Source: Haloarcula sp. CBA1129 (GTDB lineage Archaea > Halobacteriota > Halobacteria > Halobacteriales > Haloarculaceae). Taken from it: a stretch of DNA of 64,000 nucleotides. The translations under genes were made by a program, and so were the position numbers. Below the pieces are notes generated by a model, which ran no database searches, was not told where the DNA came from, and was given only the letters and a program-made list of their open reading frames with translations. Positions 8,801 to 64,000 of the stretch are shown piece by piece (within the stretch, counting starts at the first letter, position 1; every line of letters starts with the position of its first letter). The stretch covers positions 1,116,001 to 1,180,000 of the forward strand of contig NZ_RKSM01000001.1 of assembly GCF_008729015.1 (NCBI RefSeq), written 5' to 3'.

Positions 8801-9871
8801 TTAGGCCTCACTCCTCGGTTGCGTAGCGGTAGCGAGCGTCTCTTGGAGAATCGGTCGTTGCTGATGGATTTTTTGTGCGTCCTCGAGTAGCCGTTCTAAC
8901 AACGGTGGCGGCGAGTAGCCGAGGTACTCGCCAAGTTCGTGGAGGATGAGCTGGGCGTGCGACCGGAAGGTCGCCGCCCAGCGTTCCGGCGGAAACACGA
9001 TTTCGTCGTCGGCTTGCTCGGTGACCAGATCCAACAGATCACGGCTCACCAGCAGCGACAGCAACGCTGCGTACACCAGAATCTCCACGATGTACGTCTT
9101 GCTCGTATCGAACTCATCCAGATTGTACTGCGTCTTCAGCTCACGAAACAGCAGTTCTACTTCCCACCGACATCGATAAATCGTCGCTAGATCTGCCGGC
9201 AGAAACTCCTCTCTCGGCAGATTCGTTATGTAGAGATGGTAGTCGTCGGCGTCCTCGTCACGGACGCCGACGACACGGAACGTCTTGCTATCGTACGATT
9301 GCGTGCCTGCGTACTCTCGTCGATGAAACGTCGCTTCTACCTCAACATCAATGTACTCTCGGTGGAGATCGTCCACGACATCTTGGATCTGTTCACCTTC
9401 CAAGGGAATGGCGTCGCCACGCCATTCCCGCAATTCCGCCGTTATTTCCGGGTTTGCGTTCGGTTTCAGCCGGCTCACGAAGTAGCCGTCATTCTCATCA
9501 ATCAGCGCAAAGCGGCGGTACTTGAAGTCTGCTTGATCGAACAGCACCAACCGATCTTCCAGCCACGATCCCGTGGAAAACTCGGTGCTGCCGTGTGTTT
9601 TCTCGTCAGTGACGCTGAACCGATCAATCGTCTGGTCGGTGACGTTGTGGACCAGGTCGAGTCGCGCTCCACCCTGCTCCCCTCGCCGAGGTTCGAACTC
9701 ATCTGGGAGAAGCCGATGCAACCGCAACACGGTTCCATCGGCGATCATCACGTAGTCACCTTCGGAGTTAGGCGTCAGCTCAACTATCGGATTCGGAACC
9801 ACATTGACAACTGGTTCCAAACTGTGACCATGCGAATTGACCGCTTTCACGTGCTCTGGCGCGGCAGTCAA
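8801..9871 (-). pseudogene. ISH8-like IS4-family transposase, N-terminally truncated
   Basis: 356 codons of a DDE transposase with YVMIADGTVLRLHRLLPDEF, RLKPNANPEI, the YRCRWEVELLFRELK motif (IS4 Y-(2)-R-(3)-E-(6)-K) and a normal C-terminus. The frame begins after a stop with only a TTG available as start, and about 80 N-terminal residues expected for the family are missing. The break at ~9872-9890 adjoins a foreign integrase scrap, so the 5' end was lost by recombination. Confidence 0.8.
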
Positions 9872-9889
9872 TTCAGCGCGAAACAGTGA

Positions 9890-9976
9890 TTACGACGCTT
9901 CAGACACTACTGCAACCACGAGCGGCCGTACCAAGCACTTGATGGCAAAGCTCCAGCCGATGTCATCCAGAACTAG
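9890..9976 (+). pseudogene. C-terminal scrap of an integrase-core transposase
   Basis: The plus strand reads LRRFRHYCNHERPYQALDGK followed by APADVIQN and a stop at 9974-9976. HYCNHERPYQALDGK.P is the typical C-terminal end of rve-type integrases (IS3/IS481-like). Nothing else of that element is present. It overlaps the 3' end of the gene at 9963 on the other strand. Confidence 0.7.
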
Positions 9977-10823
9977 ACAGTGCCGCCTCAATGATATTTC
10001 CCGTTTCTACATCAAGTTCTAGTGTCGGTTTCCTTGCGTTTTCGTTTAGTCCCGCGGTAGAGCAGAATAGGCGGCCATTATAAGACCAAATTCGGCGATA
10101 TGTATACTGTACTCCGGTATCGTCAGTTCTCGATTGAGCTGTCCAGGCGACCTTGCCACCGGATTTAATGGCAAGTAGATTTCGGGTCGGTTCAAGACTT
10201 GGAATATCTGTTATATCCATGTTCATTTCGGGATCGAGAACCATCACCAGCACACCGTTGACTGGCAATATATCTCTGACTCTACTGGGGAGTTGTAGTT
10301 CGGTATTTGGGCCCTCAATCCGTCCTTGATAGTCTACCTGACAATCGAATTCTGGGAAGGCGGTCACCTGATGTGCCTCATCTGTGGACTCTCTACTGTC
10401 TTCGGCCGATAGAGAGCTTTTTCCGGTGTCGTACTTCAATGTCACCGTCACGAAACACTCCGGGGGGAGCCAATCAACGCCGTCTTGATCCGTCCACGAC
10501 AAGTGAAATGGCTCCAAGTGTATGCGGCCCTGAAATTCGCCTTCGCTCAACGATTCGAGACCGAGCATTGTTCCGCCTGCAATCATTTCACCCCGGAGTT
10601 CGTGACGTGTCATTGTGGGGCTTGAAATGTCACCGTTCCCCTGTGGCTGAGATGTGATTTCGATGTCAACTTGGTACCATGCACCCACATTTTGGCCACG
10701 CACAGGCAGTAAATCTGAATGTATCTCGATGTTTATCGCCTCACCAGCCCCTGAGAACTTGCAAAAACCATCTTGTGTGGTCCTCTCAAACACCGAAACT
10801 CCCCTAAATGTTACAAGAGACAT
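9963..10823 (-). CDS. unknown cytoplasmic protein, paralogue of 11376 gene (immunity-like candidate)
   Basis: 286 residues without signal peptide or membrane segments, built mainly of predicted beta-strands. It aligns over its length with the product at 11376: WYQVDIEITS/NYHIEVSFTS, a shared LEPF motif, GVDW.P, DYQGRIEG/YYQGRISG, and the C-terminal block NLLAIKSGGKVAWTA...ELDVETGNII versus NLFAIGPSGEVAWCG...ELDPETGEVI. That last block resembles a bacterial domain often seen as small stand-alone proteins. The extreme C-terminus (AALSSSG) comes from the integrase scrap, so the end was replaced. Proximity to a large secreted effector suggests an immunity or partner role; this is inference. Confidence 0.7.
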   Translation of the reverse strand: MSLVTFRGVSVFERTTQDGFCKFSGAGEAINIEIHSDLLPVRGQNVGAWYQVDIEITSQPQGNGDISSPTMTRHELRGEMIAGGTMLGLESLSEGEFQGRIHLEPFHLSWTDQDGVDWLPPECFVTVTLKYDTGKSSLSAEDSRESTDEAHQVTAFPEFDCQVDYQGRIEGPNTELQLPSRVRDILPVNGVLVMVLDPEMNMDITDIPSLEPTRNLLAIKSGGKVAWTAQSRTDDTGVQYTYRRIWSYNGRLFCSTAGLNENARKPTLELDVETGNIIEAALSSSG

Positions 10824-41882: not shown

Positions 41883-42281
41883 TTACTTCATTCCGTAGCC
41901 CATCTTTCGCAGTTCATCTTCGACTGTCCGAGATTCATTATTAGCAGCCAATACGATTGCCTCGCAAACATCAATCTTGTACACAGATTCCGATGCGAAG
42001 ATATCGTCCATCGTATCAACAATCTCTTCAACTCGGGATTCAGCCTCGTCTCGAAGGAAGAAATTTGCGTGGCTTCGTTCGTCTTGAACGCCATCACGTC
42101 GGTACTTGTACGGCAGTGCCTCAGTGTCTTGATTAGCGGTTTCAACCACCTGTGTCTCGGTTTCGATTTGGTCGGCCTCTTTAGCCTCTTCTTCCCTCTC
42201 GTTCTTCTCAGCGTCGTCATTCTCAGCGTCGTCATCCACGTCGAAATCATCCTCGAACGGGGACCCTGCGCCGGATTTCAT
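41883..42281 (-). CDS. ParA-partner protein (small ParB-like, plasmid partition)
   Basis: 132 residues. The N-terminal half is acidic and low-complexity (DDFDVDDDAENDDAEKNEREEEAKEA). The C-terminal half LPYKYRRDGVQDERSHANFFLRDEAE...FASESVYKIDVCEAIVLAA...ELRKMGYGMK is conserved in the orphan gene at 59505. It overlaps parA by ATGA, the standard order for haloarchaeal plasmid partition. It probably binds the upstream repeat region; that role is inferred from position. Confidence 0.75.
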   Translation of the reverse strand: MKSGAGSPFEDDFDVDDDAENDDAEKNEREEEAKEADQIETETQVVETANQDTEALPYKYRRDGVQDERSHANFFLRDEAESRVEEIVDTMDDIFASESVYKIDVCEAIVLAANNESRTVEDELRKMGYGMK

Positions 42282-43150
42282 GCGTCAAACGCCTCCTCGA
42301 TGTCGGTCGCGAGGTCGTCGTACTTCTCTAGCGTTTCGTGCTCGCGGTCAGGAATCCGGCGGACGCCCTTCTCGCCGTCCTTGAAGGCCTCATCGACCAC
42401 CTCATAGGCAGTCGCCCGAGCGTCCCACATCTCCTGCATGAGCGACTCGCGCTTGCGGAATACCGCCGGCACGTCGTAGTCGATATCTTCCTTGAGCGTC
42501 GCGAGGTGTTGCTTCTGACCGGTTGTATCACCGAAGGCGACAGGCACGATTCCCAGAACCCCGACCTCGATGCTGAGGTTGTCCTCGAGGCCGTCGACCA
42601 ACTGCTCCAAGCCGTCGATACTGAGTGAACCCTTCCCCGACAGTTCGACCGGGATGAGTACCGTCTGTGTGACCATGACCGCGTTGTAGAGGCCCTGGCC
42701 CTCGGATGCCTGCGGGTCGCAGATGATAACATCGTACTGTTCGTGGATGCCGTTGCGGCCCAGCAGCTGGTACAGTTGCTCTTCTTCAACCCACTCAGCA
42801 TCAGGATTCATCTGCTCTTCAGTCTCTTTGGCACGACGCATCGTCGTATCCAGCGATGAGAGCATGTTGTGGGCTGGGATGACATCGAGGTTGTCGACAC
42901 CGGTGTCCTCTCGAATGAGATCCGCAAACGGTCCCTTGCCACGGCCGACCATGTGTCGGACTAGGTTGTCCGCAGCACCGTCATCGCGGTCGTCGTCGAC
43001 TTCGAAGATGTACGAGAGTGAGGCCTCCTGTGGGTCGAGGTCGATGACGAGCGTTTTGAGTCCGTTTCGAGCGTGCGCGTGGGCGAGATTCGCTGCAGTC
43101 GTTGTCTTCCCAACCCCGCCAGCCTCGCTGTAGGTTGTGTACGCCAGCAT
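42278..43150 (-). CDS. parA: ParA-family partition ATPase
   Basis: 290 residues. Deviant Walker A SEAGGVGKTTTAANLAHA (residues ~8-25) with the signature first Lys position shifted, switch LVIDLDPQEASLSY, and Walker B-like YDVIICDPQASEGQGLYNA. This type forms ATP-dependent dimers that move plasmids bound through a centromere-binding partner. The partner gene overlaps downstream and a repeat-rich region lies immediately upstream. Confidence 0.92.
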   Translation of the reverse strand: MLAYTTYSEAGGVGKTTTAANLAHAHARNGLKTLVIDLDPQEASLSYIFEVDDDRDDGAADNLVRHMVGRGKGPFADLIREDTGVDNLDVIPAHNMLSSLDTTMRRAKETEEQMNPDAEWVEEEQLYQLLGRNGIHEQYDVIICDPQASEGQGLYNAVMVTQTVLIPVELSGKGSLSIDGLEQLVDGLEDNLSIEVGVLGIVPVAFGDTTGQKQHLATLKEDIDYDVPAVFRKRESLMQEMWDARATAYEVVDEAFKDGEKGVRRIPDREHETLEKYDDLATDIEEAFDA

Positions 43151-43156
43151 TTGTTA

Positions 43157-43345
43157 TTACTGTGTTTTACTACTACTAATAATTAGCGTGTGTTAGTAAC
43201 GCTTGCTACTAGTGTATGTAATATATGGTAGTAGCTCCCGATAGTAATTCACTGTAGTAACTATAGCTAGTAACAAATAGTAATAATTCTCGTAGGTAAT
43301 GAGAAGTAGTAATTTATGTTAGTATTGTTTGGTAGTAACATCCCG
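43157..43345. repeat. TAGTAA-rich repeat region upstream of parA (candidate centromere)
   Basis: More than ten TAGTAAC/TAGTAAT or reversed TTACTA words in ~190 bp of very A+T-rich DNA (for example 43194-43200, 43242-43248, 43255-43261, 43268-43274, 43276-43282). They begin at the parA start and run upstream. Position and density suit a partition site and/or an autoregulatory operator. Confidence 0.65.
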
Positions 43346-59504: not shown

Positions 59505-59876
59505 TCATTTCATCTCGTAGCCCATCTTCCGGAACTCGGTCTCAACGGTGCGGTCAGGCTCTCCGGCTCCGAGAAGCGCTGCCTCAAGCACGTCTACCTT
59601 GTAGACCGACTCAGTCTCGAAGACATCGCCCATTCGATCGACCAGCTCGTCGACGTGGTCTTGGGCAACATCGCGGAGGAAGATGTTCCCGTGGTCGCGG
59701 TCATTTTGGACACCACCGCGGCGGTACTTGTACGGAAGATCGCTGGTCGTATCCAGCGATTCCGTTGCTGTCGACTTGCCCGACGGTTCACTGTCGGTCT
59801 GGTCGGCCTCCTGAGTCGCTCCGTCATGGATGCGCTCACGATTGGCATTCTCGGTGGACCTCGTCAGTATCCACAT
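59505..59876 (-). CDS. orphan ParA-partner-like protein, altered N-terminus
   Basis: About 123 residues (start uncertain; [15 protein letters not shown] chosen). The C-terminal half [58 protein letters not shown]...FRKMGYEMK is clearly homologous to the partition partner at 41883. No parA precedes it; instead its 5' end overlaps the ABC ATPase by 41 nt on the same strand. The natural N-terminus and parA were probably replaced when the ABC operon was joined here. It could still bind DNA. Confidence 0.65.
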
Positions 59877-60651
59877 CGACCGGGCTCCCGAGTTCGTCTC
59901 TGATGCGGGCGACATAGTCGACGAACTCGTGGGCTGTTCGCTCGCGCGGCCGCTCTATGTCGATAGAGATAGTCGACTGTACGGTTCCGGGGTCGGCGTC
60001 CATCACGACGACCCGGTCGGCCAGCGTCACCGCCTCGTCGATGTCGTGCGTGACGAACACGACCGTCTGTTCGGTCTGGGCCCAGATATCCAGTAGTTCG
60101 GCGTGCAAGCGGTCGCGGGTCCGTGCGTCCACGCTCCCGAACGGCTCGTCCATCAGGAGAATCTCCGGGTCAGGTGCGAGTGCGCGAGCGATGCCGACAC
60201 GCTGTTTCATGCCGCCGGACAGCGCCTTCGGATACGCATCCTCAAACTCTTCGAGTCCGACGAGGTCGACCAGCTCCCGAACTCGCGCCTCGCAGTCCGC
60301 GCACTCACACGCGGGCCGGTCGAGTCCGAACCGGACGTTCCCGCGGACGGTTCGCCACGGAAACAGGGCGTACTCCTGGAAGACCATGCCCCGGTCGAGA
60401 CCCGGTTCGGTGACCGGTTCTTCGCCGACAAGGACCGACCCACTGTCCGGGTCGTCGAGTCCCGCAATCGCTCGCAACAGCGTAGTCTTTCCACAGCCGG
60501 ACGGTCCGACGACACAGCAGAACTCGCCCTCCGACACTGAGAACGAGACGTCATCGAGTGCTTGCGTCGACTCGTACGCCTTGCTGACGTTCCGAACAGT
60601 AATCTTCTCGCTGGGCGCCTCCTCGGGCTCCGTAGATGATTGCTCACTCAT
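59836..60651 (-). CDS. ABC importer ATPase (nitrate/sulfonate/taurine type)
   Basis: 271 residues from [23 protein letters not shown] in overlap with the permease stop; GTG two codons earlier is possible. Walker [21 protein letters not shown]-loop [14 protein letters not shown], signature [16 protein letters not shown], Walker [18 protein letters not shown]-loop [14 protein letters not shown]. Energises uptake with the permease and binding protein upstream. Intact. Confidence 0.92.
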
Positions 60652-62515: not shown

Positions 62516-63159
62516 CTGTATTATTAACTGGCGAACTAATTCTAATAACACCTGTGATTTCTATGCTGTATGTTAATATGATATGGAGTTTATGAATGCA
62601 GATGTTCCTAGAGTTAGCCTGAATGCAGCGAGGAGAGGAAACAGAATTTGGCAAACGGGCCGACGTCGTTCACAGGCAGGAAAGATTGCGAGTAAAATGA
62701 ATGTAGGTCAAAATCTCATGACGGGTTTAGTCGGGTCGATGAGAACAGAAGTTACACACCGGTTCTATCCTCCGAGGTTGTGTCATCCGAACAGTGCCCA
62801 GAGATATAGCGATAATTGGTTTATACAGTATTCAGCTTGAGTCCTCTATCGGTGGCAAGATGCTGGGTATCTCCCGGAAGACCCGTTCATTGATGACCTA
62901 TAAGATAGTTCTCTGCTGATGACGTCTGCGATAATCCCTGTCATTCGTCGTCGCTACAGTAGCCTCGGCGATTCGATCAAGTTCACTGGGTGCGTTCCGC
63001 CGATAGTTTTCCTTACTCTCTCGCGACCTTTCTTGTCTCGGTACCAATTATTGGTTCTGAAAAGATAATAAACTGTATATAGCTAATCACCGGCGAAAAT
63101 CTATCTCATCGAAAATAACCCTATCAGACACCATAAGGCTGGATGTCCGCATCACGCAA
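62516..63159. other. gene-free spacer
   Basis: About 640 A+T-rich bases between the ABC operon and the iteron region. A frame at 62583-62840 shows no resemblance to a protein. The promoter of the ABC operon should lie just above 62515. Confidence 0.45.
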
Positions 63160-63600
63160 CTGTGACAAGTATCTGTAACAGATGTCTGTAACTGATAGCT
63201 GTAATATGTCAAGTCACGATTCTTTAGTGCCATTCCACACAAAATTTAATAGTAAAGACCTCTAGTATATGTTTGAGATGGATATCTGTGCCAGTTATCT
63301 GTATTAGGTGTCTGTAACAAATGTCTGTACAATATTTCACACTCACAAATATTCTCCAGACAGCCATACGGGTGTTAGGTATGGGCGGTCAGCAATCTGT
63401 TGCCAAAATCTGTATTATTTATCTGTAATAGATATCTGTAACGCTTATCCGTATTATGCGCCTGTAACAAGCACCTGTGTAATATTTTTGCAGTTAGCAA
63501 ATCCTCTCCAGACATAATAACAGGTGATCTGAGAGGGCAGACCGCAATCTGTACCCATTAGCTGTACTGGACTTCTGTAATGGATATCTGTAACAAAAGC
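63160..63600 (+). repeat. four blocks of CTGTAA iterons with exact 13-bp phase
   Basis: CTGTAA-like words start at 63160, 63173, 63186, 63199; at 63286, 63299, 63312, 63325; at 63397, 63410, 63423, 63436, 63449, 63462, 63475; and at 63549, 63562, 63575, 63588. Within each block the step is exactly 13 bp. The spacers before blocks 3 and 4 are similar to each other (AATATTT...CTCCAGACA...GCAATCTG), so the whole ~110-150 bp unit is repeated. Extra copies flank the parA start. Likely a centromere for the adjacent ParA, or replication iterons. Confidence 0.8.
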
Positions 63601-63626
63601 AGGGAACGGAATTCAATGGTGAAGTA

Positions 63627-63647
63627 CCTCGGGGGCAAGCCCCGAGG
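63627..63647 (+). other. GC-rich hairpin beside the iterons
   Basis: CCTCGGGG (63627-63634) and CCCCGAGG (63640-63647) form an 8-bp perfect stem around GCAAG, in otherwise A+T-rich DNA between the iterons and parA. Confidence 0.5.
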
Positions 63648-63774
63648 CACTCGCCTTGCCTATCTGTAGATCAAGCTAGTGCTGATATGGCACACGTTAC
63701 AGATGTGTGTTACAGATACTCGTCTGTAATGTCTGACACAGATTTATGCATAATGCCATCTATACATTGACCGT

Positions 63775-64000
63775 ATGATAACGGCCGTAGTCTACTCAGA
63801 GTCAGGCGGGACGTATAAGACAACGATGACGGCCAACCTCGCTGTCGCGTTGGAACGAATGGGCGCACGCACACTAGTGATCGATCTTGACCCACAGGAA
63901 GGGAATCTAACGAGTCTGTTCGACGTTGGTGCAAATCGAAGCGACCCCGACGCAGACAATCTCGTCAAGCATATTCTCGATATGCCAGATGGTGAGTTCG
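63775..64000 (+). CDS. second ParA-family ATPase, 3' end outside window
   Basis: ATG at 63775 opens MITAVVYSESGGTYKTTMTANLAVALERMGARTLVIDLDPQEGNLTSLFD.... SESGGTYKTT is a deviant Walker A with a Tyr in place of the usual Gly/Val before KTT, and VIDLDPQEGNL is the switch I region, matching LVIDLDPQEASL of the ParA at 42278. The same family, but clearly diverged. Its repeats upstream differ in sequence from those of the first locus. The open frame runs off the window. Confidence 0.85.
   Translation, partial: MITAVVYSESGGTYKTTMTANLAVALERMGARTLVIDLDPQEGNLTSLFDVGANRSDPDADNLVKHILDMPDGEF

Follow-up and report, generated by a model that had tools for sequence, protein, structure and literature searches.

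The window analyzed here (the whole stretch of 64,000 nucleotides from Haloarcula sp. CBA1129, C1:1116001-1180000 of its genome) ends inside the gene of a ParA ATPase, and the DNA upstream of this gene carries an array of short words kept at an exact 13-bp step. A second complete module lies at 41883-43338. The features are given below in positions of the window, unless a contig or locus is named.

63158..63209, plus strand: array block 1, four contiguous 13-bp units, ATCTGTAACAGAT-like, at an exact 13-bp step
63284..63335, plus strand: array block 2, four contiguous 13-bp units
63346..63396, plus strand: inter-block DNA with a second copy at 63498-63548, within a 97-nt direct repeat (70%)
63395..63485, plus strand: array block 3, seven contiguous 13-bp units
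63547..63598, plus strand: array block 4, four contiguous 13-bp units
63692..63743, minus strand: promoter-proximal block, units at 63694, 63707, 63720 (degenerate) and 63733 (CTGACACAG), putative operator (role inferred)
63743..63748, plus strand: TATA-like TTTATG of the ParA-partner operon, conserved in A-type loci along with the unit that abuts it
63775..64000, continuing past the window, plus strand: ParA ATPase gene, 330 aa, P-loop ESGGTYKTT without the signature lysine
G000:C1:1180764-1181222 (= L008:2765-3223): partner gene, 152 aa, its start overlapping the ParA stop by 4 nt
42278..43150, minus strand: second ParA, 290 aa, SEAGGVGKTT, of the same superfamily as the ParA at the window end
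41883..42281, minus strand: partner of the second ParA, 132 aa
43222..43338, minus strand: array of the second ParA, nine positions at an exact 13-bp step, word TTACTA, one degenerate
59505..59915, minus strand: open reading frame of an orphan partner homologue without an adjacent ParA (profile match C1:1175508-1175741, E 3.4e-20)

The words of the window array stand at 63160+13n (four words), 63286+13n (four), 63397+13n (seven), and 63549+13n (four), and blocks 1 to 4 together span 63158-63598. CTGTAA is exact in 9 of the 19 words, the remainder having one or two changes (e.g., CTGTGC, CCGTAT, CTGTGT, or CTGTTG). The preliminary description, made from sequence alone, had claimed 19 words at a 13-bp step in blocks of 4, 4, 7, and 4, which held with all positions exact, and repeated inter-block DNA, which held for parts of it (63346-63442 versus 63498-63594, 97 nt, 70%). 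It overlooked the near-palindromic nature of the unit, a fifth block at the ParA promoter, and the second ParA operon, whose array has a different word at the 13-bp step. Each unit is an odd-centred near-palindrome of 13 bp, and the words are therefore readable on either strand. When the region 63150-63774 was scored with the palindromic core CTGTWACAG (at most two mismatches), 15 matches were found, with eight pairs at a lag of 13, five at 26, three at 39, and none at any other lag; 2000 dinucleotide shuffles of the same region gave a mean of 2.2 matches and a maximum of one lag-13 pair. The window array is real and lies far above the chance level. The fifth block falls on the same 13-bp grid, and its last promoter-proximal unit, CTGACACAGAT, runs into the TATA-like TTTATG before ParA. 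Blocks 1 to 4, each of 4-7 contiguous units, take the array to ~600 bp upstream of the ParA start. Phased triples of the CTGTAA-type word (at most three mismatches; single sites were outside this search) were found at no other locus of its own genome.

For the survey, 145 operons were assembled from plasmid records, 35 loci of the GTDB collection, and a class-wide search seeded with the second window ParA; in every one of them a partner gene immediately follows ParA. A DNA search with the ParA start region matched 72 plasmid records, and those listed were all haloarchaeal. Because the seeds were the two window ParAs, the survey covers their superfamily and not all haloarchaeal ParAs, and the operons are related by descent, a dependence that representative sets and counts on trees lessen but do not abolish. 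Upstream of ParA, 100 of the 145 operons had their best self-match lag (range 8-30) at 13 and 38 had it at 26 (together 138/145), and among 35 representatives (ParA <80% identical) lags of 13, 26, 39, or 52 were best in 31. A test free of any word gave a lag-13 score of 678, versus a median of 44.5, upstream of ParA in these representatives; the ParA gene body and the DNA 0.9-1.5 kb upstream were flat, and the downstream DNA was slightly raised. At least three phased words were present in 139/145 upstream regions versus 5/145 ParA gene bodies. In the A-type loci, i.e., the family of the window array, pooled lags numbered 169 at 13 bp, 119 at 26, 89 at 39, and 69 at 52, with single digits at other lags, and the ParA-partner coding DNA of these loci gave no lag-13 signal. 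The A-type units (n=352) form a symmetric odd-centred 13-bp palindrome, ATCTGTWACAGAT, and abut each other directly; of the 53 A-type loci, 52 have a unit adjoining a TATA-like box, 41-46 bp ahead of the ParA start. Upstream array extents at other loci were similar to that of the window.

Two loci of Halococcus thailandensis (L040 and L041) have a ParA frame broken after 29 residues, and their arrays are weak too. A haloarchaeal-type ParA module, 82% identical, was also found in a Candidatus Nealsonbacteria bin (L014, PUMP01000053.1), probably a binning error.

The window ParA has its P-loop at the very start, without an N-terminal DNA-binding domain, and matched AAA_31 (E 1.6e-18) and CbiA (E 1.4e-14). 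The signature lysine of the deviant Walker A motif (KGGxxK[ST]) was missing in 145/145 surveyed ParAs, where Ala (90) or Ser (55) was found, ESGG or EAGG replacing KGG in both window ParAs as well. Given this absence, it is possible that the motor cycle of these ParAs differs, and the formation of an ATP dimer without the lysine remains unexplained. Two other ParA-like genes of the own genome (L159 and L160) retain KGG and served as a negative control; their lag-13 score was 0 and no array was found. In all 145 operons the partner gene overlaps or abuts ParA, starting -4 to 0 nt from its end.

The window partner consists of an acidic low-complexity N-terminal part starting MNNFKSGSGNLDFG and a conserved C-terminal domain. 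A K/R-x-G motif was found inside the first 20 residues of 145/145 partners, and activation of ParA by this motif is inferred. The model of the partner showed low pLDDT to about residue 90. The C-terminal domain has the consensus PYxxRRxxVxDxRD....FLR...LGxxVxKTDxREAA...VAxxLREWGY (alignment, n=70), and its model (mean pLDDT 82, ~96 in the core) comprises an extended stretch followed by helices at 26-43, 50-63, and 65-74, a predicted order of elements that fits a ribbon-helix-helix monomer lacking the partner for its strand. Weak structural neighbours of this model (Z ≤3.5) were plant TCP domains and the plasmid regulator Reg576, mixed with histone folds, and TCP domains are known to fold as ribbon-helix-helix dimers (PMC10049435). 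We regard the C-terminal domain as a likely ribbon-helix-helix fold; this is unproven, its only support being a monomer model and weak structural matches, without a sequence match. With the full-length partner model, a structure search returned histone-like matches at chance level only. No credible family match was obtained for the partner members scanned in Pfam, NCBIfam, and PHROGs, the Pfam ParB family did not match the partner, and a search of PDB chain sequences with the partner profile (A4) gave no credible E-value. Public records annotate the partner as an acyl-CoA dehydrogenase (L003, L004, L006, and L007), which is unsupported by its sequence, or as a hypothetical protein. Of 197 genomes drawn across the phylum, 19 had the partner family, and all 19 belong to the order of the window's own genome.

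Classification by the most frequent phased 7-mers yielded 11 word classes (e.g., CTGTWACAG, TTACTA, TGTTCAT, TCTTAGA, TATAGCTA, AGTCTAAC/GTTAGGC, TTGAACC, and TCAGTGT), with the step constant at 13 bp. The word was common to 82-96% of pairs with a partner identity of at least 50% and to <1% of pairs at <40%. Changes of word numbered 13 and 14 on the ParA and partner trees, respectively, versus at least 41 with shuffled labels, and the word classes follow the ParA-partner lineage. Because the two trees fit the word equally, they leave its reader undecided and could not separate a word that goes with the partner from one that goes with ParA. Among pairs with ParA at least 60% identical, the word was shared in 1533/1706 when the partner was at least 50% identical and in 20/547 when it was <45%; such pair counts, which are not independent, alone favour the partner as the reader of the word, which is not proven. 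No module pair within one genome shared a word (0/28), versus 10.6% of pairs from different genomes. A strict rule of no two same-word modules per genome was nevertheless dropped as merely suggestive, since it is broken in Halorubrum halophilum, one genome of which holds two modules with the same word (L034 and L042). The difference in word between families points to an address code that distinguishes plasmids; incompatibility is inferred.

The window copy sits on a 3.48-Mb contig. To the left of the window lie orc1/cdc6 genes (G000:C1:1106893-1113107), one of them broken by a stop, and a broken ParA fragment. The orphan partner at 59505-59915 is closest to the TTACTA-family partners. As the region holds remnants of other replication and partition genes, the window copy is probably the module of an integrated plasmid, and the region appears likely to have been built from integrated plasmids. 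A phage origin was rejected, the phage collection containing no relative of the second ParA. A third module of the same genome (L009, C3) has AGCTATA-like, 13-bp-phased words both just before ParA and downstream of the partner (the latter at ~9850-10000), which indicates that the array may lie on either side of the module, as is also suggested in L021.

Very probably the array serves as centromere in a plasmid-type partition module composed of a ParA ATPase, a small partner, and upstream 13-bp units, with the promoter-proximal end of the array acting as operator, although DNA binding, segregation, and repression are all inferred. In this view, each partner dimer would read one 13-bp near-palindrome (ATCTGTWACAGAT in the A-type family) through its C-terminal domain, probably a ribbon-helix-helix. 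Dimers on contiguous, linker-free units would touch their neighbours with a rotation of ~86 degrees per step around the helix, and blocks of at least four contiguous units would create a patch of high partner density. The acidic, disordered tail of the partner, with the invariant K-x-G at its N-terminus, would contact ParA-ATP on the nucleoid and stimulate ATP hydrolysis, by which the plasmid would be moved and spread between daughter cells. Partner bound to the TATA-abutting unit would repress its own operon, and with the word varying by family and the step fixed at 13, each family would address its own plasmids only. The array, its step and conservation, the operon, the co-variation of word and module, the N-terminal motif, and the promoter overlap are shown; dimer tiling, ATPase activation, and incompatibility are, like binding, segregation, and repression, inferred, the mechanism by analogy with type Ib systems, and the same-word pair of H. 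halophilum speaks against a strict incompatibility code.

The proposal of a centromere or replication iteron in the preliminary description survived its own check, 13-bp arrays being present at orthologous and paralogous haloarchaeal ParA operons. The centromere side is favoured because the array is part of the ParA-partner module and an Orc1/Cdc6 gene lies near only 15 of the 145 loci; this role is inferred in the absence of binding or stability data. The predicted partner gene beyond the window exists, and binding by its product remains inferred; that bound proteins wind around the DNA remains a proposal without binding data. The claim of a new type of centromere held only partly, and a variant working like type Ib or SegAB centromeres is the better description.

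Three other explanations were considered. The one that survives best, and that remains possible, is that the window copy is what remains of an integrated plasmid, in decay and idle on a large replicon, its plasmid relatives being at work; this is compatible with the centromere reading. It is supported by the broken orc1, the broken ParA fragment, and the orphan partner on the same contig, and opposed by the intact state of ParA, partner, promoter unit, and array, and by the 93% identity of the window ParA to the ParA of a Haloarcula plasmid. A second explanation, that the array consists of replication iterons, i.e., an origin element for an initiator (Orc1/Cdc6 or a Rep protein) with ParA as a mere neighbour, is very unlikely. 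Arrays of iterons are typical of plasmid origins, and the 15 loci with an Orc1/Cdc6 gene close by (within the fetched flanks; e.g., L007) are in its favour. However, the array accompanies the ParA-partner module and not Orc1, its word co-varies with the partner, and it ends inside the ParA promoter; in addition, no Orc1 gene is listed in C1:1113108-1468518, which includes the window and the 19-kb locus L008, the nearest being those left of the window, ~66 kb away. It is equally improbable that the array is an operator only, repressing (or activating) the ParA operon without a centromere role, as the abutment of unit and TATA box might suggest, because four blocks over ~600 bp, with similar extents elsewhere, go far beyond what an operator needs, and the repeats of type Ib systems do both jobs (PMC5016525).

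A bolder form of the centromere reading is that haloarchaeal plasmids have one common segregation machine, in which the 13-bp step is fixed, the word is an exchangeable address that sets compatibility, and a ParA without the signature lysine forms a non-classical ATP-bound dimer; we would lean slightly against it at present. A review of segregation in archaea (PMC5120986) counts the form of the centromeres, chromosomal and plasmid, among the open questions. The open-access literature that we searched held no earlier description of such arrays, and a subscription paper could exist. The present analysis offers a concrete and testable sequence definition of a (putative) centromere for haloarchaeal plasmids, and identifies a partner family hitherto unnamed or misannotated. 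The 11 word classes on a constant step are a natural series for studying how proteins read and tile DNA, and possible uses are the typing of haloarchaeal plasmids by partition system and the making of stable vectors for laboratory strains.

Among known systems, those based on a ParB CTPase (ParABS) differ in that the haloarchaeal partner matches no ParB family of Pfam. The AspA-ParB-ParA system of pNOB8 likewise partitions an archaeal plasmid and has a palindromic site ahead of its operon (PMC5120986), but it has three genes and a single 23-bp palindrome with spreading, whereas a two-gene operon with phased 13-bp units is found here. In ParMRC of Clostridium perfringens plasmids, ParR proteins bind the arrays of their own family only, which is held to set plasmid compatibility (PMC9426499); this co-variation of binding protein and repeat array by family is a precedent for a word code, although the actin-like ParM motor is not a ParA ATPase and the systems are unrelated.

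SegAB of Sulfolobales resembles the haloarchaeal module in having an archaeal ParA-like ATPase and a small downstream partner, which binds DNA in SegAB and is inferred to do so here. SegB reads a 13-bp odd-centred palindrome, TCTAGA-S-TCTAGA, with sites in its own promoter too (PMC12284271), and the likeness to ATCTGTWACAGAT is one of length and symmetry only, the core sequence being different. The 46 SegB sites are scattered over the chromosome, whereas the units here stand head to tail, at one locus of the own genome as far as phased triples are concerned; SegAB is a chromosomal system and the modules here are of plasmids, and the haloarchaeal partner had no credible PDB sequence match.

The likeness to type Ib systems (TP228 ParF-ParG-parH and pSM19035 delta-omega-parS) extends to a ParA without a leading HTH domain, a small partner (DNA-binding there, inferred to be so here) with a disordered N-terminus and a basic residue (activating in type Ib; PMC5016525, PMC9499535), and contiguous short repeats that lie ahead of the par promoter and run into it, whose centromere activity is inferred here. 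The type Ib centromere precedes the operon, and the binding protein represses the operon and activates ParA through its disordered N-terminus (PMC5016525). The haloarchaeal module differs in its lineage-specific words at one constant step, in a partner without a Pfam, NCBIfam, or PHROGs match in the members scanned, in a ParA without the signature lysine, and in its restriction to haloarchaea within the phylum sample. We do not file the module as a member of type Ib or SegAB, because the lysine is absent in 145/145 ParAs, the ribbon-helix-helix fold is unproven, and homology to SegB has not been shown. The repeats of pSM19035 are 7-bp non-palindromic heptads and those here 13-bp near-palindromic units; at least four contiguous repeats are needed there for full ATPase activation (PMC9499535), to be compared with the window blocks of 4, 4, 7, and 4 units. 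Judging by analogy, with binding and segregation inferred, the haloarchaeal module would work like type Ib or SegAB.
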